A stretch of DNA of 22,460 nt from a virus: the IMG/VR virus record IMGVR_UViG_3300037247_001834, positions 1-22,460 of that record; one strand, given 5' to 3'. The notes beneath the pieces were generated by a model. That model was not told where the DNA came from, did no database searches, and saw only the letters and a program-made list of their open reading frames with translations. Of this stretch, positions 1-16,062 are shown piece after piece. Within the stretch, counting starts at the first letter, position 1; each line of letters opens with the position of its first letter. The translations under genes were made by a program, and so were the position numbers.

Positions 1-238
1 GTGAGGTCTGTTTGATATATTTCCATAACATCACTTTCGCCTCTGCCTGAATAGCTAGTTCCTTCCACAACTGAGATGGTCGGATAAACGCGCCCTGATC
101 GCGTAGTATGTCGGATATTCCGGGGAAGCGAGGTCCATTGTCTTCCAACGGACTGCCGCATCCAAGACATATCAATACTTTTCTCGGCCTCTGCGTAGTG
201 CTGCAATATTCACACGTGACGTAGTGTTTGATTTCCAT
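1..238 (-). CDS. zinc-ribbon-like protein, partial (cut by window edge)
   Basis: I read an open frame from an ATG at 238-236 to the window edge, 79 codons with no stop. The start overlaps the TAA of the large glycosyltransferase gene (TAATG), so it continues the same operon. The N-terminus holds C9-x2-C12 and C24-x2-C27, the pattern of a small zinc ribbon. After it the chain is mixed, with a helical stretch rich in Glu, Ala and Lys near residues 60-75. Function is unknown. Small Cys-pair proteins are common in phage genomes. The C-terminus lies outside the window, so family and length cannot be judged. Confidence 0.7.
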   Translation of the reverse strand, partial: MEIKHYVTCEYCSTTQRPRKVLICLGCGSPLEDNGPRFPGISDILRDQGAFIRPSQLWKELAIQAEAKVMLWKYIKQTS

Positions 239-3198
239 TATTCAAGCCGCTCCTCCAAAATCTTGATCGCGCCCTTGCGATTATTGCCAACTTGTTCTTG
301 GGCCAGCCAATCCTTCACTAGGTTTTCATCCGCGTCCTTCAGTGCTTTACGGAGCTCAGTGATAGTCATCTGCTGACTGTCGGCCGCGGGCATCTCCGGG
401 AATTCCTGATCAGATACTTCCACCGTCTCGGCCACGGGCAATTGACTCTCGGCAAATTGCGGGGCCGTGGCTATCACGGTCTCGGCAGGCTCGGGCTCAG
501 AGACGGTCACAAAATCTGATATACCCTTGCGAGTCCTATTCATGAGTACATCCGCGTCGGACTTCATGATGTACTTCTGCTGACCCTGTTGGAAGGTGTA
601 GCGCGTATTGGTGACTGGACCACGAACGCTGACCTTGCCCATTCTGGGTCCCTGGTATTCGACTTTGATCATGGCCTCGGGATCTTCGATTTGGGCCGGA
701 GCGGTGCTGGCCGTCGCTTGACTGCGGCTAGGACTCACTCCGCGTTTCTTATCAGGACATGAACCGCAGGGCATGTGCTTTCTCCCTTCGTAATAATCAA
801 TCCACTTCGCCCTGATCGCGGGGAGGATTTCCTTGCGTAGGCCAAAGCTCTCTTCCCTGATCGTTCCAGCCCGGAAGCGGTAGACGAATCCTGGCTGATC
901 TGCTTTATAGCTGCAGAGGCCCGCGGCTTGCAAAGCTATGAGATAATCCCAATCTTCCCAACCTGCGAACCCCTCATCGTAGCCGCCGATCTCCTCGTGC
1001 GCCTGCCTCGGGAGCAGGCACATCATGCTATGCCTCATCCGTTGCAATACGGCACCGCACTCAAACTCTGGGGCCTCGTATGGCGTGAGCGGCTTATTCG
1101 GATCGCCATCGCTGCGCAGCCAACTCGTATAAATCAAGCCGCCAGTACCCAGATATAACGAGACCATTTCCTCCAGAGCATGCGGTAGGAGCAGGTCGTC
1201 GGCATCCAGCCACAGTATAGCATCGCCGCGTGCGTGGCGTGCGCCTATGTTGCGTGCTGCAGCCGGCTTGAAAACTCCATTAGCATCGACGACCTTGGCC
1301 CAAGGCGCTCCAACAGTTGGATGCTCAAATCCATCGGGCCAAATCTTACCCGTGGCATTGACGACTACGGCCTCCCAGTTCTGGAAAGTCTGGGCCACAA
1401 GCGAGTCAAGCGCGTCGATCACATAGCGATCATGGCCCGGGCCAACCGGGATTACTACTGACACCAACGGATCGGCGAAATCAGGAACGGGCCAGAACTT
1501 CATCTTGTGAGGCTTTCCTTGAGCTCCCCACGGAACTAGATCGGGCCGCGGATGTTCTTGGGTCTGTGCCGATTGAAAAGCAGCGCGATTGTGTGTCTCG
1601 AATCCCATGCGCCACGGAAACCATGAAGTCCAGTCTCCGTCTCCAGGTTCGCCCTTGCTCTTGCTATCTCCGCGGTTGCGATAGATGATCGTTGCCGCCT
1701 CCGTAACCTTCTTGATCCTGAATCCAAAACTGGTAGCTCTGATCCAGAATGGCGCGTCCTCAGCCCTCCAGTGTCTGGTTCTGAAACCGCCCGTGCGCTC
1801 CATAACTTCCCGGCGCATCATCGCCGAATAGTGGATCTGATTTAGATGGGACATCTGCCCATACCAAGAATAGGCACTGAACGGCCAAGCATTTCTGGTC
1901 CTTCCGCTGCCGTCCTCAGCCACCATGTCCAGATGACCAGCGGCGATATGGATGTTCGCATCCTCGTCGAGTGCCTGGACCTGAATCAGAAGCGAGTTCT
2001 CGGCCAGCATATCGTCGGCATCTAAGAATAGAATGTAGCGGCCCCTGGCTTGTTGGAAGCCGAAGTTGCGTGCTCCAGGGAGCTTCAGGTTTTCTGGGGT
2101 CCGCACATAGTGAAACTTATCGCCTTTGACGATGTAATTGTGGCCCTCAGTGATCTCTTCCGCTTCATCACCAGGATCAGAGCAGTCGTCTACAACAATG
2201 CACTCCCAGTCATCAAATTCCTGCTCGGTGATGCTGTCCAAACAATCCCCAAGATAGCGGTCCAGATTGTGAGTGGTGACGATGATGCTCACCTTCACTT
2301 CGGGAGCTCTCCACCATTCCATCGTTCGCTTGTAGAGATCCGCATACTGCTCGATCCGCTGCGGCCACGTCCATCGATCGATCACATCCTGTCTAGCGTT
2401 TTCAGATAGCACCTCTCGGTTCTCGATCGCCCAACGGACGCCCTCGGCCAACGCCTTATAGTCATGGGGCTTCGCCAAGAAACCGGTCTCACCGTGAATG
2501 ATGATCTCTCGCTGTCCCCCCCAATCCCACCCGACGACGGGAACGCCACAACTTAAAGCTTCAAGCGTGCCAATTCCGAAGGTCTCCCGAGCAGTACATA
2601 GATACAGACCCGCTTGACTGACGACCTCACGCATAGCCTCGACTGGCATCACTCCCAGGATCTCGATGTTCTTCGCGGCCTTTCCGATTGTGCTTTGGAA
2701 GCGGACATCAGGCATGCTCCCGGCCAGGAACTGCATGTCGCCTGGGTCGCTCACGAAGTCAGCTCGAGCTTTATTCCACAGAACCACTGGCTGGTGATCA
2801 TCGGCTGGGGTCCACAGATTAGGATCGACCCCGTGATAGATGACCTCGGGATAGACCATCATTCCCCTACGAAGCGCATTTGCCACCCACTCAGAAGGGG
2901 CCGTATGCGCAACCGCCTGGATCATGGCTAGCGACACTTGGCGGTTGACCTCATGCGCCCAGTCTGCCCATTCATAGCGATCCCACATAGCGCCGTGATT
3001 CGTGTTGACAATTGGTTTGTTGGAGACTTCTACTCGCGCCGTTCCGTGTGTATTGATTAGGTCGGCATCCCGAATATCTCGCACCACTTCAATGCCGAAA
3101 CGTGGGAGATATTCGTTCTGAGCTTCTACGACCCTTCTGATTCCCCCGTCTGCTTTGTCGGGTCTGTCATACCAATTGGGGATTATGTGTACTTTCAT
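238..3198 (-). CDS. three-domain glycosyltransferase (GT4-GT2-GT2) with phage-type C-terminal modules
   Basis: This 986-residue protein fuses three sugar-transfer domains. Residues about 1-295 look like a short GT4 (GT-B) domain, with the C-half motif GIGTLEALSCGVPVVGW at 208-224 and REII at 230-233. Residues about 302-510 are a GT2 (GT-A) domain with VDDCSD at 336-341 and LDADD at 392-396. Residues about 578-780 are a second GT2 domain with LDADD at 664-668 and GWEDWD at 746-751; where VDDxS is expected it has VVVNATG, so its nucleotide site is atypical. CGSC follows at 811-814. Residues about 844-898 (YQGPRMGKVSVRGPV, then TRYTF) resemble a small module I associate with phage virion proteins, and 943-986 resemble a short helical SAP/HeH-like tail seen in such proteins. 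The ATG overlaps the previous stop (ATGA). It probably builds or extends a glycan in steps; donor and acceptor are unknown. Confidence 0.85.
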   Translation of the reverse strand: MKVHIIPNWYDRPDKADGGIRRVVEAQNEYLPRFGIEVVRDIRDADLINTHGTARVEVSNKPIVNTNHGAMWDRYEWADWAHEVNRQVSLAMIQAVAHTAPSEWVANALRRGMMVYPEVIYHGVDPNLWTPADDHQPVVLWNKARADFVSDPGDMQFLAGSMPDVRFQSTIGKAAKNIEILGVMPVEAMREVVSQAGLYLCTARETFGIGTLEALSCGVPVVGWDWGGQREIIIHGETGFLAKPHDYKALAEGVRWAIENREVLSENARQDVIDRWTWPQRIEQYADLYKRTMEWWRAPEVKVSIIVTTHNLDRYLGDCLDSITEQEFDDWECIVVDDCSDPGDEAEEITEGHNYIVKGDKFHYVRTPENLKLPGARNFGFQQARGRYILFLDADDMLAENSLLIQVQALDEDANIHIAAGHLDMVAEDGSGRTRNAWPFSAYSWYGQMSHLNQIHYSAMMRREVMERTGGFRTRHWRAEDAPFWIRATSFGFRIKKVTEAATIIYRNRGDSKSKGEPGDGDWTSWFPWRMGFETHNRAAFQSAQTQEHPRPDLVPWGAQGKPHKMKFWPVPDFADPLVSVVIPVGPGHDRYVIDALDSLVAQTFQNWEAVVVNATGKIWPDGFEHPTVGAPWAKVVDANGVFKPAAARNIGARHARGDAILWLDADDLLLPHALEEMVSLYLGTGGLIYTSWLRSDGDPNKPLTPYEAPEFECGAVLQRMRHSMMCLLPRQAHEEIGGYDEGFAGWEDWDYLIALQAAGLCSYKADQPGFVYRFRAGTIREESFGLRKEILPAIRAKWIDYYEGRKHMPCGSCPDKKRGVSPSRSQATASTAPAQIEDPEAMIKVEYQGPRMGKVSVRGPVTNTRYTFQQGQQKYIMKSDADVLMNRTRKGISDFVTVSEPEPAETVIATAPQFAESQLPVAETVEVSDQEFPEMPAADSQQMTITELRKALKDADENLVKDWLAQEQVGNNRKGAIKILEERLE

Positions 3199-4031
3199 GA
3201 TGCACCAAAGAGTTCAGGGTACATGCGGAAGATCTGGTCCTCCACGCAGCGGTATTCCTTTGCTGTCTCGATGTTCCGACCAACTGCAGGCAATCTCTCC
3301 GCGTAATCTTGAATGGAAAGCCCCAAGAGAATTTCATCGAGTTCATCGATGTCCTGAAATGTGATGATGCCTTGCATATCGAAATGAGTATCGATCTGTG
3401 GCGAACCCCAGTAGATAGGGACGGTGCCGAGGCAAATGCAGTCGATCAGCTTCTCTGAAAAATAATCCGCCTGTCTACTATTTTCGATCACGATTGAATA
3501 CATGAAGGAGGCCAGCGCTTGGAGCTTCGGCACATATATGTCAAACCCAAAGTCCTCAATCTGATCAGGGTAGCACTCACGCACCGCGTGGCGCAGTTTG
3601 TGGCCCTCAGTCGTGTTCTTCTGTGATCCCAAGATTGAAACAAGCCGACTTTTCTCTTTCAGTCCCCAATCATGCGGATGGATCCAAGATCCACCATAGG
3701 GATAGAACCACCATTTTTCCCTGTGGATATAACGCATATCGAAGGTCAGAATGGCCCCGAAATATTCCTCGAGTTCCAGTGCGTCAAGATAAGGATCAGG
3801 CCTCAATCCATGTGGTTCGAGGATCCACGCTACATTTCGATCAGACCTGCCGAACTCACGCACGGTCTTGATCTGCCCATCGGTGAAGAAGATGGGATCG
3901 TCCCCGTATTCGCCCTTCGTCGGGAATTGATACCACTTTACGAACTCGGGCATCTCACCAGCATTATCACCGCCGAGAGAAGCTGAGAGAGATTGGCCCA
4001 TGAATGCAGAATCGACGATTGTTACTTTCAA
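3195..4031 (-). CDS. GT10 fucosyltransferase-like glycosyltransferase
   Basis: The C-terminal half carries the hallmark of GT10 alpha-1,3/1,4-fucosyltransferases: IENSRQADYFSEKL at about 182-195, then GTVPIYWG at about 202-209, matching the family pattern ENS...DYxTEK...GxVPIxxG. GT10 enzymes usually transfer fucose from GDP-fucose. I chose the TTG at 4031 (278 residues): it overlaps the upstream stop as TTGA, has GGAG about 8 bases before it, and gives an N-terminus MKVTIVDSAF like that of the next gene. A longer in-frame reading to 4094 would run deep into the epimerase gene. It sits between the epimerase and the triple glycosyltransferase with 4-base overlaps on both sides, so the three are probably translated together. 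The donor sugar is inferred from family only. Confidence 0.8.
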   Translation of the reverse strand: MKVTIVDSAFMGQSLSASLGGDNAGEMPEFVKWYQFPTKGEYGDDPIFFTDGQIKTVREFGRSDRNVAWILEPHGLRPDPYLDALELEEYFGAILTFDMRYIHREKWWFYPYGGSWIHPHDWGLKEKSRLVSILGSQKNTTEGHKLRHAVRECYPDQIEDFGFDIYVPKLQALASFMYSIVIENSRQADYFSEKLIDCICLGTVPIYWGSPQIDTHFDMQGIITFQDIDELDEILLGLSIQDYAERLPAVGRNIETAKEYRCVEDQIFRMYPELFGAS

Positions 4032-4924
4032 TCCAAACTCCAGTGAACTATAGTGTGCGCAAGCCCTGCTCTCAGCGTCATTCCAGGTTCCCAATCTAAG
4101 TCCTTATTGGCCTTCGAAGGATCAAGCACGATGTGGCGCTGCTCAGGCACTGGCGGCCCGTGTGGGACTTCATCATCATGACCAGTGATGTTCTGAACAA
4201 TAGCGACCGCCTCATTGAGCGACGTGCCGATTCCTGTTGCGATATTCCAGATGCCACTCTTCCTTGAGTGTGTTAGCGCGATCATATTTGCTCGGATCAC
4301 GTCGCCCACATAAATCCAATCACGGGTTTGCTCGCCATCCCCATTTATGATCAGCTCATCTCCCTTTAGCATGTGATTGATGATGCGCGAGACCACGGCG
4401 TTTTCACCGCTCGACTTTTGGCCGGGGCCGTAGACATTCCCATATCGCAATGCCGCCCAAGACAATCCAGAAGCGGCCAAGTAGTACTCACAGGCCAACT
4501 TCCCCACACCATAGGGACTGGCCGGCCGGGAATCCATGTCTTCCCGCAGCGGGATGATCGATTCAGGATCGTAGAGCGCACAGGTCGAGGCGAACACAAA
4601 GCGACTACAGTTGACTTGTTGCGCCGCGCTGATCATGGCAACCGTTCCCAGCACGTTGGTCCGACAATCCTCATAAGCATTCTTCAGCGAGAATGGCACA
4701 CTGGCGTTGGCCGCCAGGTGGATCACTGCCTCGGGCGTTGAAAGCTCGAACACTCCCCGAATAAGTTGTATGTCTGCGACATCCGCTCTTACGCACTGCA
4801 CCCCATCAAGATCTGGCTGTTCACTATTATGGTCGATCGCCAACACATCATGGCCATCTTCTATGAGCGCCCTGACCATGTGTTGTCCGATAAATCCTGC
4901 ACTCCCAGTTACGCAGATCTTCAT
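4028..4924 (-). CDS. NAD-dependent sugar epimerase/dehydratase (extended SDR, GalE/RmlB-like)
   Basis: A 298-residue extended short-chain dehydrogenase acting on nucleotide sugars. It starts MKICVTGSAGFIG, the Rossmann NAD site GxxGFIG at 7-13. An acidic residue ends strand 2 (D31), FASTCALYD at 111-119 carries the catalytic Ser/Thr, and Y138-x3-K142 is the active pair. YGNVYGPGQ at 161-169 and RDWIYVGDV at 201-209 are typical of UDP-glucose 4-epimerase and related 4,6-dehydratases. Length is normal. I chose the ATG at 4924 because it overlaps the previous stop (ATGA); a longer in-frame reading to 4972 would lie inside the upstream glycosyltransferase gene. The subgroup cannot be told by eye, so the product could be UDP-galactose or another sugar. 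It probably supplies a donor to the adjoining transferases. Confidence 0.88.
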   Translation of the reverse strand: MKICVTGSAGFIGQHMVRALIEDGHDVLAIDHNSEQPDLDGVQCVRADVADIQLIRGVFELSTPEAVIHLAANASVPFSLKNAYEDCRTNVLGTVAMISAAQQVNCSRFVFASTCALYDPESIIPLREDMDSRPASPYGVGKLACEYYLAASGLSWAALRYGNVYGPGQKSSGENAVVSRIINHMLKGDELIINGDGEQTRDWIYVGDVIRANMIALTHSRKSGIWNIATGIGTSLNEAVAIVQNITGHDDEVPHGPPVPEQRHIVLDPSKANKDLDWEPGMTLRAGLAHTIVHWSLD

Positions 4925-5577
4925 GCGCTTTTCATCCTTTCCCTGGCGGCTTTTAAGCCACCGCCTTTCCACTCAATATAGCGTCGGTCCTGGACCGCCT
5001 TGTCTTCGTGTTTCCTATCCATGGAAACGGTCGGCTCATGATGGTGTGGTACATACGAAGCTTGGCAGTACGTGAATCTCTTGAGATCTCGGCTTCTCAC
5101 GGTGAGCTCACTGTCGCAGAAGTGATGGAAATACTCGCTTGGAAAGAAGGGCTCGCCATATACAACTTCGAACCATCGACGCGTGGTCATTCCGTGACTG
5201 GCGTTGCCACCATCATGGATGTCATCTCTGAAAGTCAAGAGGCCAAGGCCGTCCGGAAAGCTTTGCGTGAAGCAATGTTCAGCTTCCTCAAGCCAGCGCT
5301 CATGGAACGTCACATCCTTCCCGAAGTAGCAGAACGGTTCATCCTCAGCTATGGGACAGATCGTGAAGACGTGGTTGAACGACTGCCAGAAGCCGAGGTT
5401 CTTCTGGTTCACGACGGTCTCGATCCCCTTGAAATCATCCAGTGCCAGGACACTCTCCGGATCTTCATCGACGACCACCACAGTTCTATGCGGAATCTTC
5501 TCAGCTGCCATGAGGCTATCAAGGCAACGGATCAGCATATCCGACCTATGGCGCGTCGGGATGATGACCGTTGTCAT
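4921..5577 (-). CDS. GT2-like glycosyltransferase (GT-A fold)
   Basis: A 218-residue protein starting MTTVIIPTRHRSDML, the first strand and loop of GT2-type glycosyltransferases, followed by LIRCLDSL, VVVVDEDP at 33-40 and NQKNLGFWQSFN at 57-68. The usual DxD metal site appears to be replaced by GKDVTF near 86-91, so the metal-binding part is atypical. The chain is shorter than most GT2 enzymes (over 250 residues). His-rich stretches (FHHF, PHHHEP) lie in the C-terminal third. The ATG overlaps the previous stop (ATGA), and the stop overlaps the epimerase start. No membrane segment is seen, so it is probably cytoplasmic. Donor and acceptor are unknown. Confidence 0.75.
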   Translation of the reverse strand: MTTVIIPTRHRSDMLIRCLDSLMAAEKIPHRTVVVVDEDPESVLALDDFKGIETVVNQKNLGFWQSFNHVFTICPIAEDEPFCYFGKDVTFHERWLEEAEHCFTQSFPDGLGLLTFRDDIHDGGNASHGMTTRRWFEVVYGEPFFPSEYFHHFCDSELTVRSRDLKRFTYCQASYVPHHHEPTVSMDRKHEDKAVQDRRYIEWKGGGLKAARERMKSA

Positions 5578-5834
5578 CCAGCATCCTCGCCCTCCAGTGT
5601 GGCGGCGTAGGCATGTAGGGCCTTAGCGCATTCCATCTCATAAAGCGGGGGTTGTTCAACAATGTGTTCCGACCAAAGCTGTGCATACTGCGCACTCAAA
5701 CACTCCACAGCATTCAGGCGGCGTTCTGCTTCCTTCCAATGCAATCGTTCCCCGCAACCTTCTACTTTGCAACGGACGAGAAACGTTCCGCTATACACTC
5801 GCTCTTTGATACGCCACACATGCCTATGTGCCAT
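5574..5834 (-). CDS. small phage protein, paralog of the gene at 10927-11196
   Basis: An 86-residue protein starting MAHRHVW. The ATG at 5834 follows GGAGA at a normal distance; in-frame sequence up to 5891 lacks such a site. C22 and C27 (CKVEGC) could form half of a metal site. It is clearly related to the gene at 10927-11196: both begin MAHxHxW, share RLNAVECLSA in the middle and end ALxAYAATLE or ALKAYAAALE. The DNA matches too, from the ribosome binding site through the first codons and again over RLNAVECLSA, so this is a duplication within the genome. Function is unknown. Its end overlaps the next glycosyltransferase start (ATGA). Confidence 0.75.
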   Translation of the reverse strand: MAHRHVWRIKERVYSGTFLVRCKVEGCGERLHWKEAERRLNAVECLSAQYAQLWSEHIVEQPPLYEMECAKALHAYAATLEGEDAG

Positions 5835-5847
5835 CTTCTGTCTCCTT

Positions 5848-6066
5848 TCACTTATCCACCCATACGACCTGGGTCCTGCCTCCATGTCCATGAATGGCCT
5901 TCAGATCGTACATCGAATCATAGACGGCAACCGAGGTCCTTACCGTGCGCCAGGCCAGCACGACCTTCCCGGTCGAGAAGTGGCAGCCTTCCGCGACGAC
6001 ACCTTTTCCGGACATGCCAGAGACATCCTCTTGGCGATTGAGAACGAAGCGTCGGAAGCCGCTCAA
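5848..6066 (-). CDS. conserved small phage protein of unknown function
   Basis: A 72-residue protein reading MSGFRRFVLNRQEDVSG and ending HGHGGRTQVVWVDK. The start is TTG at 6066, overlapping the previous stop as TTGA; the ribosome binding site before it is weak. The pattern (RFVLxRxEDVSG, GVVAEG, VAVYDSM, then HGHGG) resembles a small protein I have met in many phage genomes, often among genes of unknown function. It looks like a compact beta fold. I know no function. It lies inside the glycan block between a small zinc protein and the duplicated gene. Confidence 0.7.
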   Translation of the reverse strand: MSGFRRFVLNRQEDVSGMSGKGVVAEGCHFSTGKVVLAWRTVRTSVAVYDSMYDLKAIHGHGGRTQVVWVDK

Positions 6067-6257
6067 TGCATGGCCCTAGTAAGGCGCACGGAATAGGCCA
6101 TCAGTGCATCGCTATGGCATTCGCCACATCCTGGACAACCGTCCTTTTCATCATCAACAAAGTAATGCTTATTGGAATCGTGTCCACATTCACATGGGAA
6201 ATGACCATCCCACCAAGCGGCATAATCCTCTTTCCTTAGCTTCTCTAAATCATTCAT
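6063..6257 (-). CDS. small zinc-binding protein (CxCGH type)
   Basis: A 64-residue protein. The ATG at 6257 overlaps the stop of the preceding glycosyltransferase (TGATG); longer in-frame sequence to 6323 would lie inside that gene. FPCECGHDSNKHYF in the middle and CPGCGECHSD after it give a CxCGH-x4-H plus CxxC-x2-C pattern, typical of small phage zinc proteins. The N-terminus is charged and helical (MNDLEKLRKEDY). Function is unknown; DNA or protein binding is possible. Confidence 0.7.
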   Translation of the reverse strand: MNDLEKLRKEDYAAWWDGHFPCECGHDSNKHYFVDDEKDGCPGCGECHSDALMAYSVRLTRAMH

Positions 6258-6994
6258 CAATAGCTTTGCCTTTCTCCCACATGGCCCCACACCGACCACC
6301 CGCCCAGCGAAATCGGCCACCATATTTGCGGCCCGTTCTGCCTATCTCTTACTTGTTGATCGTAGGCCACTTCACAGTTTCCCGGATTGACTGATGGATC
6401 GGTTGGGTATCCATCGTAAAACTCGAAGAACCGCCGATGTCTCAGCGATGGATTTCCGCTGTACTGGTAAGGCGTACTCCATCTCACGCGAAGATAATGA
6501 TTGCCTTTATGCCCCACCGAATAGAGATCCAAATCAATCGCCATGTATCCCATTCGCACCATCCCCACGTCCGGCAGATCCAAAAGCAACCTCACGTAGG
6601 GGCCGATATGCAGTTGCTTTCCCAGCTCCCAATCATCTTCCAGCCACAGGATGATGTCGGCCCACTCAAGGCATCCTTGGATAGCCCTGTTCCATGAGGG
6701 ACCCGGTCCCATACGTTCCGAGTGCTGCCCGATGATCAGTGGCGAGGACTCGCCGTTGCGCCATTCATGGCCGACCTGCGCCATCACCGATTTGAAGTGA
6801 TTTTCAGGACTTCCATCGTCGGCCACGTACCAGCCCAATGCTCCGGTCGGATAGACCAGCCGTTTCCTGATTGAACGGATGCAACTCATCACGTAATCGG
6901 TCCGCGGTGGATAGCCCTCGGCAGTCCCCGTCAAAAGAGCAATGGCCACCCGCGGCCATTCGGTCCCTTGGATGACCTCGATCTTGTCGCTCAT
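6257..6994 (-). CDS. GT-A fold glycosyltransferase (GT2-like)
   Basis: A 245-residue protein with features of GT-A glycosyltransferases: VAIALLTGTAEGYPPRTDY at 16-34, YVADDGSPEN at 56-65 as the nucleotide-binding Asp motif, GPGPSWNRAI at 96-105 and WLEDDWEL at 117-124 as the metal-binding DxD-like site. The C-terminus ends in an aromatic stretch, WWPISLGGWSVWG. It starts with ATG 71 bases after the heptose-kinase-like gene, the largest gap in this block, with only a weak ribosome binding site (GGCGG). An in-frame TGA lies just upstream, fixing the start region. Sugar and acceptor are unknown. Confidence 0.8.
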   Translation of the reverse strand: MSDKIEVIQGTEWPRVAIALLTGTAEGYPPRTDYVMSCIRSIRKRLVYPTGALGWYVADDGSPENHFKSVMAQVGHEWRNGESSPLIIGQHSERMGPGPSWNRAIQGCLEWADIILWLEDDWELGKQLHIGPYVRLLLDLPDVGMVRMGYMAIDLDLYSVGHKGNHYLRVRWSTPYQYSGNPSLRHRRFFEFYDGYPTDPSVNPGNCEVAYDQQVRDRQNGPQIWWPISLGGWSVWGHVGERQSY

Positions 6995-7065
6995 CCGCCA
7001 ACGATCTCAGCCACAGAAACGCAGACGACAAGATCACATCGAAGCAACCGATCCCAGATCCCGGC

Positions 7066-8076
7066 TTAGGGAGTTCCGTTCTTGTCATCAAACATCACCC
7101 GGCTTCCTTCGACCCCCCACTGAACGCGCAGGGGCCGAACTTCGTACATCTGCATTGCCATATCCACTACCGCCGCAGCCTTGAGCGGCACGTACATCAG
7201 CAGGAATCCTCCCGCGCCCGCCCCGCAGAGCTTCCCGCCCAGAGCGCCCGCATCAAGCGCCGCGGCATACATCTCATCGATCACGTCATTAGAGATCCGA
7301 TCACTCAATCGCCGCTTGCGTTCCCATCCCTCACCCAAGATGTATCCGAGGTCATCGAGCTTCCCGCTCACTAAGGCCTCGCGTGCCTGCGTTGCCAACC
7401 CCACCATCGCACCCACTTCGGCTGCAATGTATCGCTTCTCCTTGATGCGCTCAGAGGCATGCTCCAATATCTCCTGACTGTCTCTGATGAATGCCGTCCG
7501 ATAGAGTACTAATCTCTTTGAGAGCTTCTGTTCGGTCTGAGGCGAAAGGTTCAGGGCTTCGACGTTGACATCTCCCGTAGGAAGGAACTGCATGTGATTG
7601 AAGCCGCCGAAGGCACAGGCATATTGATCCTGCTTGCCGCCTGGCCTATCAAGTCGATCAAGCTCTACCTCGCAGGCAGCTTCAGCGAGGTATCTTGCTC
7701 CCGGCGCCTTTCTCCAGATGTGTTTGGCAAGCGCGTGGATCACGCCCACCGTCACGGCACTTGAAGATCCCAATCCCGATCCATGACCAGGCACATCGGC
7801 CAGCGTCGAAATCTCCAGTCCGAACGGAGCATCAAGCCATCTAAGACTTTCTCTGACCAGATCATGTTCCATGCCATTAAGAGCGTTGACGATTTCTGTC
7901 TTGCTGTAACTGAGGCGTATATGATATTCGCTCCAATAGCGGTTGACTGCCACATAGACATAGGCGCCAATCGCCGCGCTTGTGACCGCACCCATCTCGC
8001 CCTTTTCAGTCCAGGCGGGGAGGTCGGATCCACCGCCGGCAAAGCTCACTCTAAGCGGGGTACGTGTGAGGATCAC
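7066..8076 (-). CDS. hddA: GHMP sugar kinase, similar to D-glycero-alpha-D-manno-heptose 7-phosphate kinase
   Basis: A 336-residue GHMP kinase of normal length. RTPLRVSFAGGGSDLP at 5-20 is the family N-terminus, PGHGSGLGSSSAVTVG at 96-111 the ATP loop, GGKQDQYACAFGGFN at 146-160 the active-site region and KLCGAGAGGFLLM at 282-294 the third motif. The wording fits HddA-type kinases, which phosphorylate D-glycero-D-manno-heptose 7-phosphate at C1 on the way to GDP-heptose for S-layer and capsule glycans. Related kinases act on fucose and other sugars, so substrate is uncertain. The start is GTG, overlapping the previous stop as GTGA. No other gene of the GDP-heptose pathway is in the window, so it would depend on host enzymes or genes elsewhere. 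The gene symbol rests on motif likeness only. Confidence 0.83.
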   Translation of the reverse strand: MILTRTPLRVSFAGGGSDLPAWTEKGEMGAVTSAAIGAYVYVAVNRYWSEYHIRLSYSKTEIVNALNGMEHDLVRESLRWLDAPFGLEISTLADVPGHGSGLGSSSAVTVGVIHALAKHIWRKAPGARYLAEAACEVELDRLDRPGGKQDQYACAFGGFNHMQFLPTGDVNVEALNLSPQTEQKLSKRLVLYRTAFIRDSQEILEHASERIKEKRYIAAEVGAMVGLATQAREALVSGKLDDLGYILGEGWERKRRLSDRISNDVIDEMYAAALDAGALGGKLCGAGAGGFLLMYVPLKAAAVVDMAMQMYEVRPLRVQWGVEGSRVMFDDKNGTP

Positions 8077-8681
8077 TCAGTTGCCCAGCGATTGCGGAAC
8101 TTCTTGATCTCCGATGCCAGATAGAAGTGTTTGACCATCTTGCTATCGTAGAGTTCATCAAGCAATTCACTATCGAATTTCGCGGCCTTGATAAACCGAG
8201 CATAGTCATCACCGAATTTCTCACGACCATAGGCGCGGTGGTCCACCGTGAATGGACCTGAAGCTCCGAGGGCTTCCAATCCTTCGGCAAGTGCGCTGTC
8301 TAACTTCTCGGTCTTGATCACCAGCACATTGCCGTAGACCTTCCAGCCTTTAGCTTTGGGGAATGTCTCCGCGTAGACATCGACACCGAGAATCGGCTGC
8401 AACCAATCTTCGAACCATGTCAAATAACCGTGTTGGAAGTTCGCGGTGAAATCTTCGAGTTGTAGAAATCCAGAGTAGGTAGTCTCGAAATACTGGGAGA
8501 TATTACGCGCCATGGGATCTCTGACCATAGTCACGAATGCATCATAGAAATTCAGGTCAAGCTCATAGATGTCATGGATGTTCCCCGGATAGCCGCGGCC
8601 AACCACATGCCCAGCAGATTGAACGGCGCGCATGACCGTCGTCGATCCGACCTTCCCCATCGTGTAAGCCAAGATGTTCAT
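8073..8681 (-). CDS. sulfotransferase-like / capsular polysaccharide synthesis-like protein
   Basis: A 202-residue protein. YTMGKVGSTTV at 6-16 looks like the 5'-phosphosulfate (PAPS) loop of sulfotransferases, and VRDPMARNISQYFE at 53-66 matches the 3'-phosphate motif RDPxxxxxSxY. This pattern is also found in putative capsular polysaccharide synthesis proteins. Such enzymes transfer sulfate from PAPS to a carbohydrate. The C-terminal half is charged and helical. ATG overlaps the stop of the previous gene, itself sulfotransferase-like, so two related enzymes sit side by side. A role in decorating a surface glycan is inferred; activity is not shown by sequence alone. Confidence 0.7.
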   Translation of the reverse strand: MNILAYTMGKVGSTTVMRAVQSAGHVVGRGYPGNIHDIYELDLNFYDAFVTMVRDPMARNISQYFETTYSGFLQLEDFTANFQHGYLTWFEDWLQPILGVDVYAETFPKAKGWKVYGNVLVIKTEKLDSALAEGLEALGASGPFTVDHRAYGREKFGDDYARFIKAAKFDSELLDELYDSKMVKHFYLASEIKKFRNRWATE

Positions 8682-9193
8682 TGTCCTCCTCCATAGTATT
8701 TATCATTCGCATACGCGATCTCGATGTCCGGCTCTTTCAATCCCAACCGGTCTACGAACAGCCAGCGTCTGAATTTCTCGTCGAGGCAGAATGCTTCATA
8801 TGTGATGTAGATAAGTGGGAAATATCTAAATGCTTCAAAGGCTTTAAACAGACCGTGACGAATCTTTACTGCTAGAATGCCAGGATGACGATTTGGATCT
8901 CTTCTTAATACAGATTTGATTGTTGCGTTCCATTCACGAAATATAATGATCGGCACTATGTTATAGCCTGCGATGTCCATAGCCGACGCGATTTCGGAGA
9001 ATTTGGGTGCCTCTCCTGCATGGGGAATGCTACGCCTGAACACAAGCAGATCTGGCATCTCCCCGAATTTGTAATCTTTATGGACACCGTTATGCCAAGA
9101 TTCCCAGTGACAGCCGGCCAACTGGAAAGCCTCGGCCAGCATATATGTGCCAGATCCCTCAGCACCTACGATGAAGAAAGCTCGTCTACTCAC
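8678..9193 (-). CDS. sulfotransferase-like P-loop protein
   Basis: A 171-residue protein starting MSRRAFFIVGAEGSGTYML; VGAEGSGT at 9-16 resembles the PAPS-binding loop of sulfotransferases. FREWNATIKSVLRR at 85-98 could be the 3'-phosphate site (R followed by S eight residues on), and YITYEAF at 129-135 matches a later conserved strand. It is short for the family (usually 250 or more), so it may be a minimal form or another P-loop enzyme. The start is GTG, 8 bases inside the FkbM-like methyltransferase gene, with GGA upstream. Parts of the gene are more AT-rich than its neighbours. It pairs with the next gene. Confidence 0.62.
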   Translation of the reverse strand: MSRRAFFIVGAEGSGTYMLAEAFQLAGCHWESWHNGVHKDYKFGEMPDLLVFRRSIPHAGEAPKFSEIASAMDIAGYNIVPIIIFREWNATIKSVLRRDPNRHPGILAVKIRHGLFKAFEAFRYFPLIYITYEAFCLDEKFRRWLFVDRLGLKEPDIEIAYANDKYYGGGQ

Positions 9194-9791
9194 GTCGTTT
9201 CCAAGCCTGGGCCGTGGATCCGCAATCCCAGATCATCTCGTGGGTCACATCAAGCATCTGTCTCAGCCTCAGCCACTTCTCGGCCGCGGTCTGCACAAAC
9301 AGATGCCATTGACACCAGAAGTATTTGATCTTCGGCATCATGCCCATCCCGATCATATAGGGAAGCAACACGAATTCGCCGCCCTCAATGTTCATCAGGC
9401 AAACGTCGATCTGATCAATGTGTTCTTTGATGAAGAATGAATAGGCATCCACGACCAAGATTGAACGGGTATCCTTGCCTCCGGGGAATGACATGAGTGT
9501 TCCCCCATCTCGGCCAAATTCGGTCAAGGTCATCTCACCGCCGTGAGTCCACAATCCGAATTGGTGGATCTTGGCGTTGTAGCCCTCAAGCTTCTCTTCG
9601 ATCTTCACAGCCGCCCAGTCTTGAGGCTCGAATACATAGAGCTGAGGGTTGTACTTCTCGGCCATCTGTAATGCCCAGCGGCCTTCGTAGCCGCCGATCT
9701 CCCACACTACAGAGTTCTCATCGGTTCCAGGCCAATCCAAAGCCAAGGTGTCATCGCCTCGGGCGGCGAACCAGTCTTGAGGTTCAATCAT
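9186..9791 (-). CDS. FkbM-like SAM-dependent methyltransferase
   Basis: A 201-residue protein. VVWEIGGYEGRWALQM at 28-43 is the SAM-binding first motif, YVFEPQ at 52-57 the acidic end of strand 2, and LMNIEGGEFVLLP at 132-144 matches the FkbM motif (D/N)IEGxE. FkbM proteins O-methylate sugars or other small molecules and are frequent in glycan gene sets. Length is near normal. The ATG lies 8 bases inside the metallopeptidase-like gene. A role in methylating a sugar fits the neighbours but the substrate is unknown. Confidence 0.78.
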   Translation of the reverse strand: MIEPQDWFAARGDDTLALDWPGTDENSVVWEIGGYEGRWALQMAEKYNPQLYVFEPQDWAAVKIEEKLEGYNAKIHQFGLWTHGGEMTLTEFGRDGGTLMSFPGGKDTRSILVVDAYSFFIKEHIDQIDVCLMNIEGGEFVLLPYMIGMGMMPKIKYFWCQWHLFVQTAAEKWLRLRQMLDVTHEMIWDCGSTAQAWKRRE

Positions 9792-10101
9792 TCATCCATC
9801 CATTGCGAAAGAAAGTATCCATAAGCGCCAACGATAGAACACAGAGCGCATCATGACCATCGTCACCCTGAAACAAATTCAATTTAAGTTCCTCATCAAG
9901 GCCATGTAAGATTTCATGGATAATAGTCTCCCAGACATCCTCTTTTGATCGCCCAACATCGTAGATACGAATAGTTCTAGTCCAATAATCAATCTGGCCC
10001 CATAAAGATTTGCGACGATAAATATCAACTTCAGAAGGTTTGTCAACATAGGTAACGGAATACTCAATGCCGAGAATAATTATTTTTTCAGGATATTTCA
10101 T
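9784..10101 (-). CDS. small zinc metallopeptidase-like protein (HExxH)
   Basis: A 105-residue protein starting MKYPEKIIILGIEYSV. I chose the ATG at 10101 because AGGAGG sits 5-6 bases before it, overlapping the stop of the methyltransferase gene; a longer in-frame reading to 10173 lacks this. IIHEILHGLDEEL at 60-72 contains HEILH, an HExxH zinc-peptidase core with a following acidic residue. WGQIDYWTRTIRIY at 34-47 is the beta strand pair seen before the helix in small phage peptidase-like proteins related to ImmA/SprT types. The DNA is more AT-rich than its neighbours. Substrate is unknown; it may be a non-catalytic member. Confidence 0.72.
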   Translation of the reverse strand: MKYPEKIIILGIEYSVTYVDKPSEVDIYRRKSLWGQIDYWTRTIRIYDVGRSKEDVWETIIHEILHGLDEELKLNLFQGDDGHDALCVLSLALMDTFFRNGWMND

Positions 10102-10109
10102 TGTTCCTC

Positions 10110-10670
10110 CTAATGCTCGAAGACTTGGACATTGCTCACCAGCCAGAACATCGGCATCGGAATGGCCATCCAAGCTAGACGTAGCCGATGGGTCAGGTCC
10201 TCCCGATATTTCAAACCGCGCTCATAGAGCTGGTTGCGCCAGTACATGGCCGCACGTAGATGAAGATGATCGTCTCCGCCCTGCCCAGGATGGGCGGCTG
10301 TGAACACGAGTTGACCGCCCTTCTGCACGTGGCTGGTGATGTTGTTCAGGAAGATCCCGGCCTTGGAAGGATTGATGTGCTCGGCGACTTCGATGCACAT
10401 GACTAGGCCGAATGTCCGGCCAAGGTTGAGTGGCTTGGTCAGGTCACGGATGATGTCGGGTTCTTCGTTCTCGATCTGGTCGACCCCTATCGCATCAATG
10501 TTCAATAGCCTCGCGATCTTGACCATGGCCGCAGTCCCACAGCCGACATCCAAGATCGATGGCGGTTTTCCAAACACCGTTAGGTATCCGAAAAGCACCC
10601 GTTCATTCCATACATTGAACTCTTCCAAATGCTTTTCCCAGACTTCAGATGTCATCGATTTCTTAGCCAT
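10110..10670 (-). CDS. class I SAM-dependent methyltransferase
   Basis: About 186 residues. ILDVGCGTAAMVKIA at about 39-53 is the glycine-rich SAM loop, IGVDQIE follows as the acidic strand-2 end, and CIEVAEHINPSKAG at about 92-105 matches motif II of the Methyltransf_11/23 group. Two ATGs are adjacent (10673 and 10670); the second has AAGGAG at the better distance, so I used it. It overlaps the stop of the preceding gene. Substrate is unknown; sugars, small molecules or lipids are possible. The C-terminus is hydrophobic (AWMAIPMPMFWLV) but short for a membrane anchor. Confidence 0.8.
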   Translation of the reverse strand: MAKKSMTSEVWEKHLEEFNVWNERVLFGYLTVFGKPPSILDVGCGTAAMVKIARLLNIDAIGVDQIENEEPDIIRDLTKPLNLGRTFGLVMCIEVAEHINPSKAGIFLNNITSHVQKGGQLVFTAAHPGQGGDDHLHLRAAMYWRNQLYERGLKYREDLTHRLRLAWMAIPMPMFWLVSNVQVFEH

Positions 10671-10930
10671 CATTCTCCTTGTCCCAGCGCCCCCCGCGCT
10701 ATCTGCCGAACAACAGACTGTGCAATCATTGGCCGCTGCTTGTCATCTGAAGCAAAGACAATCCCATCTAGCTCAGATAGACTCTTTAGTGCAGTTTCCA
10801 GCTTGGCGATAGTTGTCAGCGCAATCTTAATGGCGTCATCCACGCGGTTTTGGCGCTCAATCATATCTGCGATGTGTGGTCCCCAACGCATGTCGTGAAG
10901 AGCTTGGCGCGCTTCATCTCCTGGTTTCAT
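10670..10930 (-). CDS. small helical protein of unknown function
   Basis: An 86-residue protein reading MKPGDEARQALHDMRW, followed by a helical stretch (DDAIKIALTTIAKLETALKS) with heptad-like spacing. The ATG has GGAGG 7 bases upstream and overlaps the previous stop (ATGA). A six-G run lies near the 3' end (plus strand 10690-10695). After it a different frame would read GRWDKE, close to the C-terminus GRWDKKE of the gene at 11676-11858. The last codons may therefore be frame-shifted, or the two genes may share a copied end. Confidence 0.6.
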   Translation of the reverse strand: MKPGDEARQALHDMRWGPHIADMIERQNRVDDAIKIALTTIAKLETALKSLSELDGIVFASDDKQRPMIAQSVVRQIARGALGQGE

Positions 10931-11196
10931 TGTCGTTCCTCCAGTGCGGCGGCGTAGGCTTTCAATGCTTCGTGAACAGGCAGCATGTATTCGTTGCCAT
11001 CTTCCGCTATGGTGCGCCGCGCATTCATGGCAAACTCAGCACTCAAACACTCGACAGCATTGAGGCGATTAAGAATTTCGTCGTCAGTCAGCATAGCGTG
11101 GCATTTTGAGTTTGGCCCAACCTGCACAAGACAAATAGGCATCATTACTTCGTGGTAGTCATGCCATTTCATCACCCACTCATGCTTATGTGCCAT
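10927..11196 (-). CDS. small phage protein, paralog of the gene at 5574-5834
   Basis: An 89-residue protein starting MAHKHEWVMKWHDYHE, with AGGAG 7 bases before the ATG. Cys and His residues (H3, H5, H12, H15, C22, C32) could bind metal. RLNAVECLSAEFA in the middle and HEALKAYAAALEE at the end match the second copy at 5574-5834, as does the DNA around the start codon. The middle parts differ, so the copies are old. Function is unknown. It overlaps the preceding gene by 11 bases and the next by 4. Confidence 0.72.
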   Translation of the reverse strand: MAHKHEWVMKWHDYHEVMMPICLVQVGPNSKCHAMLTDDEILNRLNAVECLSAEFAMNARRTIAEDGNEYMLPVHEALKAYAAALEERQ

Positions 11197-11963: not shown

Positions 11964-11991
11964 AGTATATAACAAAGGAGGAGGGCGGCAA
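11964..11991 (-). promoter_or_regulatory. weak candidate promoter after the capsid terminator
   Basis: On the minus strand TTGCCG (11991-11986) and TATACT (11969-11964) are 16 bases apart. The -10 matches consensus in five of six positions; the -35 matches only three and lies in the loop of the terminator hairpin. It is placed to restart transcription of the small genes and glycan block. Weak evidence. Confidence 0.25.
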
Positions 11992-12001
11992 ACCCTCCTC
12001 C
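11971..12001 (-). terminator. rho-independent terminator after the major capsid gene
   Basis: Plus-strand 11977-11985 (GGAGGAGGG) pairs perfectly with 11993-12001 (CCCTCCTCC) around a 7-base loop. On the minus strand the stem is followed by TTTGTT, a modest U tract. It lies 26 bases after the capsid stop codon, where a strong head transcript would be ended or thinned. Confidence 0.75.
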
Positions 12002-12026: not shown

Positions 12027-13463
12027 TTATCCGTTCCAGTCGCCGAAGAGGCTAGGCGGTGGGGGATCAGTTATCCCGCCATCCACGAAGTATGGATCAT
12101 CCGGCTGCGGGTCCCGCGGGTGCTGCAGCGGGCAATAGCAGACGTTCGTGAGCCGTGCGGCGATCTGCGGTGTTCGCAGGATCACTCGTGGCTCGATCTT
12201 GGCCTCGTGAAGGACGCACCAGTTCTGCGTATCCCAGGTCCAGAGATATTGACCGGCATCGGTCCAGAACATATTGGTGAGGCGCCCATTCGCTACCGCC
12301 TGCATCGTTCCTGTGCGGTAGTCGAAATGCTGCCAGAAGGTTACGGGGATCCCGCCCTTCACCGTCAAAGGAACCAGATAGATGTCTGAGGCAAAGCAGC
12401 CGACGGGGATCGCGCTGTTGTCGCCCGAGGACTCTTCAACAATGTTGTCGTCGAGCAGCACCGGCACTCTCACGCCATCGATCAGCAGGAAGTTGCCGTT
12501 GCGCATCTCATCCCGCATCCTGACGTTCTCGCGGCCATCGACGAAGATCTCTCGGTTGTCGGTGGCACTGGAGAAGGTGCAGCGGTAGGTCTGGTAAGCG
12601 CAGGGCCATACATCAGTGAGCTCCCAGAAGAGCGCGGTCCGCATGGCGAAGATCCAGCGCGCAGGATTCAGGTTCGTATGCTGCGCGATGTGATTGACGA
12701 TCCGCCAGATGGTGAGTAGAACCCTCACGATGTCTGGATCTGCATCTTCTTCCTGCACGCAGGAGTAGTTGAAGTCCTTGACATCGGAGTCGAGCGTCGG
12801 GCAGTCATCGCCCGTGATCGCGTCCACCTTGGTCGTACCGATCAAGATGTCCAGTCCCTGGAACTCCATGTGGCCGCCGCCCGCGGAGTTATTCGCGGGT
12901 GTTGCGGTATAGAGCTGGCGCCCCAACCGGTTAGCAAATGCCACGCCGAGTTCAAGCATCCTCGCCAGCACCTCAGCGCCAGCCGATAGCTGCTTGTTGG
13001 GATCGATATTGGGGAAGATCGTCTTTCCCAATTCAGGGGCGATCGGATCGTTGACAACCCGAAGGTCATCAAACTCGCCGCGATTGATCAACTGCCCCAC
13101 GCGGTTGATCTCCAATTCACGCGTGCGGAAGCTGTAGCGGCCAAACGGGAAGGTCTGCAAGCAGCGCTTTTCAGATCCCGCCACCTCTGGGTCATCGCAA
13201 ACCCCATCGGGGACTGACCCGCTCACATCCTGGTATCCGGTGATCACACCGAATAGAGGATGAGTTAGGTTGGTCGCGAAGACTGGCAGCGCCGTTGCGA
13301 GCCCTGAGCCCTCAATCCGGGTATGGAATAGGTCACGTTCGATCCCTTCCTGCCCGAATAGCCCGCCAGGGCCGTGAAGGTAGGGCGTGCTGGGCGTACC
13401 AGTCGCCGTCACCTTCGATTGAATCATTGATGCAAGTGCATCGAGAACCTGCTTGTTATCCAT
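12027..13463 (-). CDS. major capsid protein (probable, HK97-like)
   Basis: A 478-residue protein directly after the protease/scaffold gene, the usual place of the major capsid gene. The ATG has AGGAGGG about 10 bases upstream, one of the strongest ribosome binding sites here, as expected for an abundant protein. The N-terminus MDNKQVLDALASMIQSKV is helical; the rest is mixed with many short strands (LLIDGVRVPVLLDDNIVE at 326-343, typical of capsid folds). It has ten cysteines (89, 101, 221, 235, 288, 295, 356, 416, 442, 444), unusual for a capsid protein. The C-terminus is Pro- and Asp-rich (DPQPDDPYF, DPPPPS). Identity rests on position, size and expression signals more than on a known motif. 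Confidence 0.8.
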   Translation of the reverse strand: MDNKQVLDALASMIQSKVTATGTPSTPYLHGPGGLFGQEGIERDLFHTRIEGSGLATALPVFATNLTHPLFGVITGYQDVSGSVPDGVCDDPEVAGSEKRCLQTFPFGRYSFRTRELEINRVGQLINRGEFDDLRVVNDPIAPELGKTIFPNIDPNKQLSAGAEVLARMLELGVAFANRLGRQLYTATPANNSAGGGHMEFQGLDILIGTTKVDAITGDDCPTLDSDVKDFNYSCVQEEDADPDIVRVLLTIWRIVNHIAQHTNLNPARWIFAMRTALFWELTDVWPCAYQTYRCTFSSATDNREIFVDGRENVRMRDEMRNGNFLLIDGVRVPVLLDDNIVEESSGDNSAIPVGCFASDIYLVPLTVKGGIPVTFWQHFDYRTGTMQAVANGRLTNMFWTDAGQYLWTWDTQNWCVLHEAKIEPRVILRTPQIAARLTNVCYCPLQHPRDPQPDDPYFVDGGITDPPPPSLFGDWNG

Positions 13464-15468: not shown

Positions 15469-15501
15469 TAAGGTATGGCTACCAACATCTGCGCGACCTG
15501 C
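15452..15501. repeat. 11 bp perfect inverted repeat around the HNH start
   Basis: GCAGGTCGCGC at 15452-15462 and GCGCGACCTGC at 15491-15501 are exact reverse complements with 28 bases between, including the candidate -10 box and the HNH start codon. The right arm encodes the first zinc motif (CATC). It could be an operator or an RNA hairpin hiding the start; it may also be chance. Confidence 0.5.
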
Positions 15502-16062
15502 CATCGCGCCTATTACATTCGTCCTTGCAACATCAAGCGTAGCAATTATTGCTCACGTTATTGCGCTCGTGGTTCAAATCCTTTACTCCTACGAAACTGC
15601 ATATTTTGTGGTTCAAAATATAAGCCCAAAAACCAAACTTCAAAATATTGCTCACGAGCATGTCACCAATTATCACGACGCATTCGGATCAAAAAGCAAT
15701 GCGCGACCTGTGATCAAGAATTCGAAGTTACACCTGCCAAAAACGCCACCCGTCACTGTTCTATGAAATGTCGAACTCAACTAGATTCCAATAATCCGAA
15801 CTATAAGAATGGACACTTCTCTGGCCGCAGCAATTCATATCCTTATGGTGGCAAATGGCCGACAATTCGCGAGAGAGCGAAAAAGCGGGATGACCATAAG
15901 TGTCAATGGTGCAGTTCAACAAAATCATTAGAGGTTCACCATATCATTCCATTCAAAGCGTTCTCTACAAAGCAAGAGGCAAATAAGCAATCCAATCTCA
16001 TCACCCTTTGCAGAAAGCCGTGTCATCAAGAAGCAGAGTATTTCGACGTTGCTTCTGCATAA
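15475..16062 (+). CDS. HNH endonuclease with three zinc-finger repeats (free-standing homing type)
   Basis: A 195-residue protein on the opposite strand to all its neighbours. It has three repeats of CxxC followed by CSxxC: C6/C9 with C26/C30, C42/C45 with C59/C63, and C76/C79 with C95/C99. A linker with NNPNYKNG follows, then an HNH nuclease domain: DDHKCQWC, LEVHHIIPF with the catalytic His pair, NLITLC and CHQ. Such proteins cut DNA and can spread their own gene; zinc repeats usually bind the target. The gene is visibly AT-richer than the head genes around it, a sign of separate origin. The ribosome binding site is weak (AAGG very close to ATG). Its stop overlaps the U tract of the minus-strand terminator, so it appears inserted between that terminator and the protease gene. 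Confidence 0.88.
   Translation: MATNICATCHRAYYIRPCNIKRSNYCSRYCARGSNPLLLRNCIFCGSKYKPKNQTSKYCSRACHQLSRRIRIKKQCATCDQEFEVTPAKNATRHCSMKCRTQLDSNNPNYKNGHFSGRSNSYPYGGKWPTIRERAKKRDDHKCQWCSSTKSLEVHHIIPFKAFSTKQEANKQSNLITLCRKPCHQEAEYFDVASA

Follow-up and report, generated by a model that had tools for sequence, protein, structure and literature searches.

A glycan-building block downstream of the capsid gene

The window analysed here, by which we mean all 22,460 bases of the linear IMG/VR virus contig IMGVR_UViG_3300037247_001834, carries nearly all its genes on the minus strand, in the order small and large terminase, portal-like, gp10-like, protease/scaffold-like and capsid genes, a few small open reading frames (ORFs), and then a single-strand block of about 10 kb of glycan-building genes, which may serve to glycosylate the virion. 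Besides a triple glycosyltransferase (GT), a GT10-like enzyme and two other GTs, the block comprises an epimerase, a kinase, methyltransferases and sulfotransferase-like proteins. Connector and tail genes lie past the end of this contig; in relatives they stand 3' of the block. The features of the block are as follows.

238–3198, minus strand: triple glycosyltransferase, 986 amino acids (aa) (Pfam; catalytic residues kept in 23 homologues)
238–774, minus strand: predicted nested in-frame gene, ATG at 774–772, 178 aa (conserved start and Shine-Dalgarno-like site; stand-alone homologues)
3195–4031, minus strand: GT10-like glycosyltransferase (Pfam E 9e-5; FucT profile E 9e-16)
4028–4924, minus strand: NAD-dependent nucleotide-sugar epimerase, GalE-like (Pfam, NCBIfam, PDB)
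4921–5577, minus strand: stand-alone GT2 glycosyltransferase (Pfam E 4e-7)
5574–5891, minus strand: small zinc-ribbon-like protein, paralogue of 10927–11196 (ORF; profile match to the 10927 ORF)
6063–6323, minus strand: small Cys-rich ORF (ORF only)
6257–6994, minus strand: GT-A type glycosyltransferase, conserved core, EDDW invariant (14-member alignment)
7066–8076, minus strand: GHMP sugar kinase, HddA-like (NF049969 E 9e-51; PDB 4n3o E 3e-43)
8073–8681, minus strand: NKWYS-family sulfotransferase-like protein, accessory (PF10364 E 7e-13; motifs conserved in four sequences)
8678–9193, minus strand: sulfotransferase-like protein, accessory (P-loop-like motifs only; EGSG motif conserved in four sequences)
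9186–9791, minus strand: putative FkbM-type methyltransferase, accessory (TIGR01444 36.6 bits, cut-off 37.7)
9784–10101, minus strand: HExxH protein, relative of phrog_1233 (PHROG E 2e-13)
10110–10673, minus strand: class I S-adenosylmethionine (SAM) methyltransferase, conserved core (Pfam E 5e-9; 40–52% identity in relatives)

A sequence-only reading of this DNA had described a glycan-building block after the capsid gene. Its ORFs lie where it placed them and most of their enzyme families are borne out by Pfam, NCBIfam, PDB and profile searches, with the triple GT, the NAD epimerase, the GT10-like enzyme and both stand-alone GTs each backed by Pfam or a family profile. Start and stop codons, said to overlap in nearly all cases, overlap or nearly abut between most neighbours. 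Not noted in that reading were the nested start, the HExxH protein and several small ORFs that resemble zinc ribbons.

Retention of the block in related phages

First searches with the capsid yielded five relatives, G1–G5. The glycan block directly follows the capsid gene in G1, G2, G3 and G5, and the G4 contig ends within the capsid gene. Farther along, G1, G3 and G5 carry the triple GT, a DUF1360 gene, a connector of 414–424 aa (a label inferred from its position before the tail genes), a putative tail protein with a propeller and, after it, the tape measure. A search with the triple GT returned 27 viral loci with the same gene order (loci of relatives bear L numbers in what follows). A further search used capsids only, 17 diverse queries taken mostly from loci found via the triple GT; the best 80 of 96 loci were kept, so that more distant relatives are under-sampled, and 76 remained after removal of duplicates. 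Because glycan content played no part in their selection, these loci provide a fair test of block retention. Among them, the triple GT lies between capsid and connector in all 19 loci whose contig includes the connector, in an interval of 3.0–9.6 kb (median 7.3 kb), and at least two glycan genes are present in 38 of the 39 connector-less loci with at least 3 kb downstream of the capsid. The block is thus kept together in related phages, as the sequence-only reading had proposed to check, and unrelated cargo after the same capsid, which it had named as refuting, occurs in only one of the 39. Judged by these comparisons, the view that the block forms a coherent set for building glycan, and is not random cargo, has strong support.

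The GT-A protein, the methyltransferase, the kinase, the epimerase and, as a second enzyme of that type, a PseB-like epimerase/dehydratase are each found in many relatives. Accessory genes vary, some of them named by eye: the sulfotransferase-like pair (seen in the window, L025, L026 and L050), GT10, FkbM, a DegT-type aminotransferase, a formyltransferase, a PIG-L-like deacetylase and radical SAM enzymes. As far as gene content tells, the pattern is one of a constant machine with exchangeable decoration. Genes of relatives were picked greedily as ORFs, so that small genes may be missed and accessory counts are lower bounds; the connector alignment was too divergent to serve for scanning, and pattern searches for the large terminase (TerL) found no viral relatives.

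Several other features accompany the block in relatives. A DUF1360 membrane protein lies directly 3' of the triple GT in many of them (e.g. G1, L009:3391-3723). A recurring protein of 135–284 aa, receiver-domain-like by eye, was seen as 12 ORFs (e.g. G5, L019:19477-19884), often between kinase and epimerase, and the G3 block holds a signal-peptide-like, cohesin/dockerin-like protein, again by eye (L014:253-963). The putative major tail protein (G1 L009:3-1490 and equivalents) bears a YCF48-like beta-propeller (Pfam E 4e-7) throughout the family, an unusual decoration of a tail tube.

The triple glycosyltransferase and its predicted nested gene

The triple GT consists of a GT4 module (residues ~1–295), two GT2 modules (~300–530 and ~575–800) and a C-terminal small-protein domain, with Pfam E-values of 7e-45 for GT2 and 3e-20 for GT4; a PHROG match to GtrB within the block concerns only the GT2 module. 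In 23 homologues, 32–60% identical to the window copy and forming 21 clusters at 70% identity, E205/E213 of GT4 and D393/D395, E480/D481, D665–D668 and E748/D749 of the GT2 modules are unchanged, and the C-terminal Cys pair is likewise invariant. With identity to the window as low as 32% and catalytic residues invariant, the core of the block is, on the evidence of these alignments, old.

The nested product would run from a CxxC motif through a linker, Ser-rich in many members, to a beta domain (pLDDT, a model confidence score, ~94) and a three-helix LEM-like end. An in-frame start codon stands 1–3 codons before the first Cys in all 23 aligned fused genes (21 ATG, one GTG and one TTG), retained although the spacing to that Cys varies, and nearly all have a purine-rich Shine-Dalgarno-like site before it, the weakest in L034. 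Pairing with the anti-Shine-Dalgarno sequence averages -8.2 kcal/mol at the nested starts versus -2.4 at 525 other in-frame ATGs (Mann-Whitney p 3e-14, a value that overstates independence because the sequences share ancestry). Among 14 more GT tails that keep the Cys motif, 13 also have start and site. The tail domain forms a gene of its own, of 74–92 aa, between GT and connector in L088, L090, L092, L095 and L096, and L102 has one fused and two consecutive free copies, the free protein beginning MxCxC as well. Fold likenesses to the GINS B-domain and to gpFI are weak and were not used as evidence of homology.

The same signals could arise at the protein level, the internal Met and the purine-rich stretch encoding a linker before a metal-binding CxxC and the fused protein being the sole product. 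Glu/Gly/Lys codons alone give Shine-Dalgarno-like DNA, as synonymous recoding of the seven upstream codons still averages -6.4 kcal/mol, and several other Met columns are kept in 80% of copies. Yet none of 300 recoding trials reaches the observed energy, so the signal exceeds the amino-acid effect; GTG and TTG in the two copies that lack ATG are hard to explain except as start codons; and the constancy of the start at varying distance from the Cys, together with the free MxCxC protein of L102, also speaks against a mere linker. We therefore regard a sole fused product as rather improbable, and the triple GT gene, from its sequence signals, probably yields two products. That the second is a free small protein in or on the capsid, bearing the glycan or recruiting the enzyme, is an extension we advance tentatively, as possible rather than likely.

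Enzyme families of the block

The remaining enzymes are assigned with varying firmness. The epimerase matches Pfam at E 2e-57, with UDP-glucose 4-epimerase (4zrm) as its best solved relative. The GT10-like gene likely starts at a TTG at 4031, overlapping the epimerase stop, within a longer ORF reaching 4094; as a single sequence it is weak, just under the Pfam cut-off, and a seven-member profile matches alpha-1,3-fucosyltransferase FucT over the GT10 C-terminal domain. The GT-A protein lacks a Pfam hit, and its 14-member profile matches a GT-A chondroitin synthase (E 1e-6). No homologue of the stand-alone GT2 was found among the relatives compared.

For the kinase, previously called heptose-kinase-like, HddA is indeed the best family and 4n3o and 3k85 the best PDB matches; its 173 bits against an HddA equivalog cut-off of 600 place it below the curated threshold. 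One of the two proposed methyltransferases, the SAM enzyme, is clear, and the FkbM assignment is marginal, just below the NCBIfam cut-off. The sulfotransferase reading is weaker. Both proteins have the motifs, and one of them also matches the NKWYS family; the 8678–9193 protein has no match in the family libraries, and profiles of both families matched no sulfotransferase among solved structures. As to the idea that this set could make a sugar precursor, the pathway is not complete: family-library searches of the window's block proteins (relatives were not searched for these) found no isomerase, phosphatase or nucleotidyltransferase beside the kinase. Sugar precursors of the host would thus be needed.

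The small HExxH protein is absent from the relatives examined. The small Cys/His-containing ORF at 5574–5891 in the block has its paralogue at 10927–11196, just upstream of the block, both on the minus strand.

Head genes, host and cultured relatives

Two features adjoin the block on its 5' side.

12027–13463, minus strand: probable major capsid protein, 5' neighbour of the block (46–68% identity in G1–G5; HK97-fold matches, low-confidence model)
11977–12001, minus strand: terminator-like hairpin just 3' of the capsid gene, 10 pairs with a T-rich tail (pattern scan only)

The capsid gene had no family match in library searches. Top fold matches are almost all capsids or encapsulins (HK97-fold shells), at E 5e-3 or worse, and are supportive only, because the capsid model is of low confidence (pLDDT 50). 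The hairpin after the capsid stop may lower expression of the block; it comes from a scan whose total was no higher than in shuffled sequence. A promoter scan of the window gave nothing above chance, and no tRNA or Rfam element was found in it. A lone plus-strand HNH endonuclease-like gene (15475–16062), with zinc-finger-like repeats by eye before the HNH motif, lies amid the minus-strand head genes and, from its sequence, is probably a homing element. Three proteins of the window, that of 206 aa, the portal and the terminase, have much longer orthologues in relatives (the 206-aa protein in G1, L009:14588-16261; portals in G1, L010:960-3224, and in G3, 1037 aa; TerL in G5, 841 aa). The G1 orthologue of the 206-aa protein has Hint/intein matches, and head genes of the family may often contain inteins.

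A capsid scan of 84,980 species genomes matched only an Anaerolineae metagenome-assembled genome. Eight of 396 Anaerolineae genomes had a capsid match, and four of the eight contigs show capsid, triple-GT-profile match and DUF1360 in that order. The host is probably a member of Anaerolineae (Chloroflexota), which is not proven because these contigs may be prophages or co-binned phage and other classes were not sampled alike. In INPHARED, neither megablast of the whole window nor tblastn of the capsid, connector, tail protein and GT-A protein gave a match; the kinase matches 12 records (an annotated HddA-like gene also occurs in Caulobacter phage Cr30), and tblastn of the triple GT 56, none from Mycobacterium. 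By these searches the phage family is one without a close cultured relative found.

Discussion

We lean, with modest confidence, towards reading the block as a module for virion glycosylation that forms part of the head operon in a family of uncultured siphophages. Late in infection, the core enzymes, i.e. the methyltransferase, the HddA-like kinase, the GT-A protein, the epimerase and the triple GT, would assemble a short cytoplasmic glycan from activated sugars supplied by the host. Accessory enzymes, here FkbM, the sulfotransferase-like pair, GT10 and GT2, would then trim the glycan in a phage-specific manner, a role that elsewhere would fall to aminotransferase, formyltransferase, radical SAM or other enzymes. 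From its internal start, the triple GT gene would also give the small CxxC/beta-domain protein, which in deeper relatives has a gene to itself in the capsid–connector interval. This domain probably either anchors the GT to the head under assembly or is a small head protein in its own right that might accept the glycan. What the sequence itself shows is the conservation, the position, the catalytic motifs, the fusion and the start signals; the two products, the virion target and the identity of the sugar are what we infer.

Among the recurring families of the block, DUF1360 alone has a regularly membrane-bound look; the enzymes appear soluble, and a lipid-linked surface pathway is hence not evident. 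With no flippase, polymerase, GtrA/GtrB-like protein or polyprenyl-phosphate transferase seen in the block either, a cytoplasmic glycan on a soluble acceptor is probable. The virion would be the likeliest acceptor, because the block lies with the late head genes and its triple GT is linked to a small protein encoded in the capsid–connector interval. The sequence-only reading had named virion and host surface alike; of the two, the virion is favoured by position, by the absence of membrane-bound enzymes and by the small protein linked to the GT.

Several observations weigh against this proposal. DUF1360, the usual downstream neighbour of the triple GT, could point to the envelope. Of the informative capsid relatives, L109 (IMGVR_UViG_3300042876_000418) alone has no glycan genes 3' of its capsid gene; the genes there are unrelated and mostly on the opposite strand. 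A fold search with the nested protein gave no significant structural match, the Cys motif is missing from the fused tail in several deeper relatives (e.g. L101, L102 and L117), and the purine-rich Glu/Gly/Lys codons before the internal Met account for part of the Shine-Dalgarno signal. Virion glycan and acceptor are here predicted from genes alone.

The block might instead remodel the host surface, altering the surface glycan of the infected cell such that other phages are excluded or progeny escape, in the manner of serotype-converting gtr clusters, with DUF1360 as membrane anchor. The best argument is DUF1360 itself, with about two hydrophobic segments and directly after the triple GT in many relatives; an HddA-like kinase and an epimerase are moreover typical of envelope sugars, and this function was assigned to pelagimyophage glycosyltransferases (PMC7029224). 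Against it stand the soluble-looking enzymes without visible lipid-linked machinery, and the place of the block among late head genes. Integrases occur in only 7 of 25 relatives; some members may therefore be temperate, and, taken with the late-head position, the block is mostly not a lysogenic-conversion locus. On balance we consider host-surface remodelling unlikely, though it deserves to be kept in view.

Sugar-coating of modified bases in the phage genome is very improbable. Virus-encoded glycosyltransferases do modify DNA elsewhere (Pyle 2024, as cited in PMC12619734), but DNA glycosylation is disfavoured because thymidylate-synthase homologues, which could make a hydroxymethylated base, occur in none of 25 relatives, as against 9 of the 14 genomes used as controls (the search covered this one enzyme family); the position in the head operon also speaks against it, and sulfotransferase, kinase and epimerase functions would be unneeded. 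That the slot after the capsid gene is a permissive one filled with random cargo (morons) is scarcely credible: accessory genes vary freely, homing-type HNH genes are scattered through the interval and L109 carries unrelated genes in the slot, but the triple GT occupies all 19 complete intervals with catalytic residues intact at 32–60% identity to the window copy.

If virion glycosylation is the function, a whole phage family, probably on Chloroflexota, would keep a glycan factory at a fixed site of its head operon. A conserved core with variable decorations is expected for a surface under recognition pressure, here outside any animal immune system, and confirmation would raise the question of what reads phage coats in the environment. 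Phages with such a dual-product gene would own a virion-coating machine that is dedicated and self-contained and whose sugar chemistry can be exchanged, and the nested gene offers a direct molecular handle, as a single mutation would part the enzyme from the small protein.

Comparison with known systems

The block differs from serotype-converting gtr clusters in that no membrane GtrA/GtrB-type components were seen in it. It shares an HddA-like kinase with the GDP-D-glycero-D-manno-heptose pathway (GmhA, HddA, GmhB, HddC), but the GmhA, GmhB and HddC families are missing among the window's block proteins, the set searched for them (relatives were not). In phage lambda, gpFI is a small protein encoded between the capsid gene E and FII. 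The gene position of our small protein is the same; unlike gpFI it is fused to an enzyme, without sequence similarity, and the gpFI C-terminal domain (2lsm) appears in the nested protein's fold list at TMt 0.60 and E 2.6, which is not significant.

Phage-encoded virion glycosylation as such is already known, from a small number of cultured actinophages that have one or two transferases. The scale of the block, its fixed slot, the fused or nested small protein and the phage family were not found in cultured phages or in the open-licence literature, the latter absence being weak evidence. Mycobacteriophages Che8, Corndog and Myrna bear glycans on capsid and tail-tube proteins (Freeman 2023, via PMC12619734 and PMC12363180). 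As in those tailed phages, the glycosyltransferases are phage-encoded, here known from genes alone with catalytic motifs intact; homology of the triple GT to Che8 gp110 or Corndog gp38 was not found by tblastn in INPHARED (deep GT2-domain homology was not tested). Compared with what these sources describe, the enzyme set here is far larger, and one of its GTs joins three modules to a small protein of the head locus. A single pelagimyophage or cyanophage can likewise carry several glycosyltransferases together with enzymes for sugar precursors, but these lipopolysaccharide-type genes lie in a hypervariable region at the tail fibres and in small clusters scattered about the genome (PMC7029224), whereas the block described here occupies one fixed capsid–connector slot and has a conserved core.

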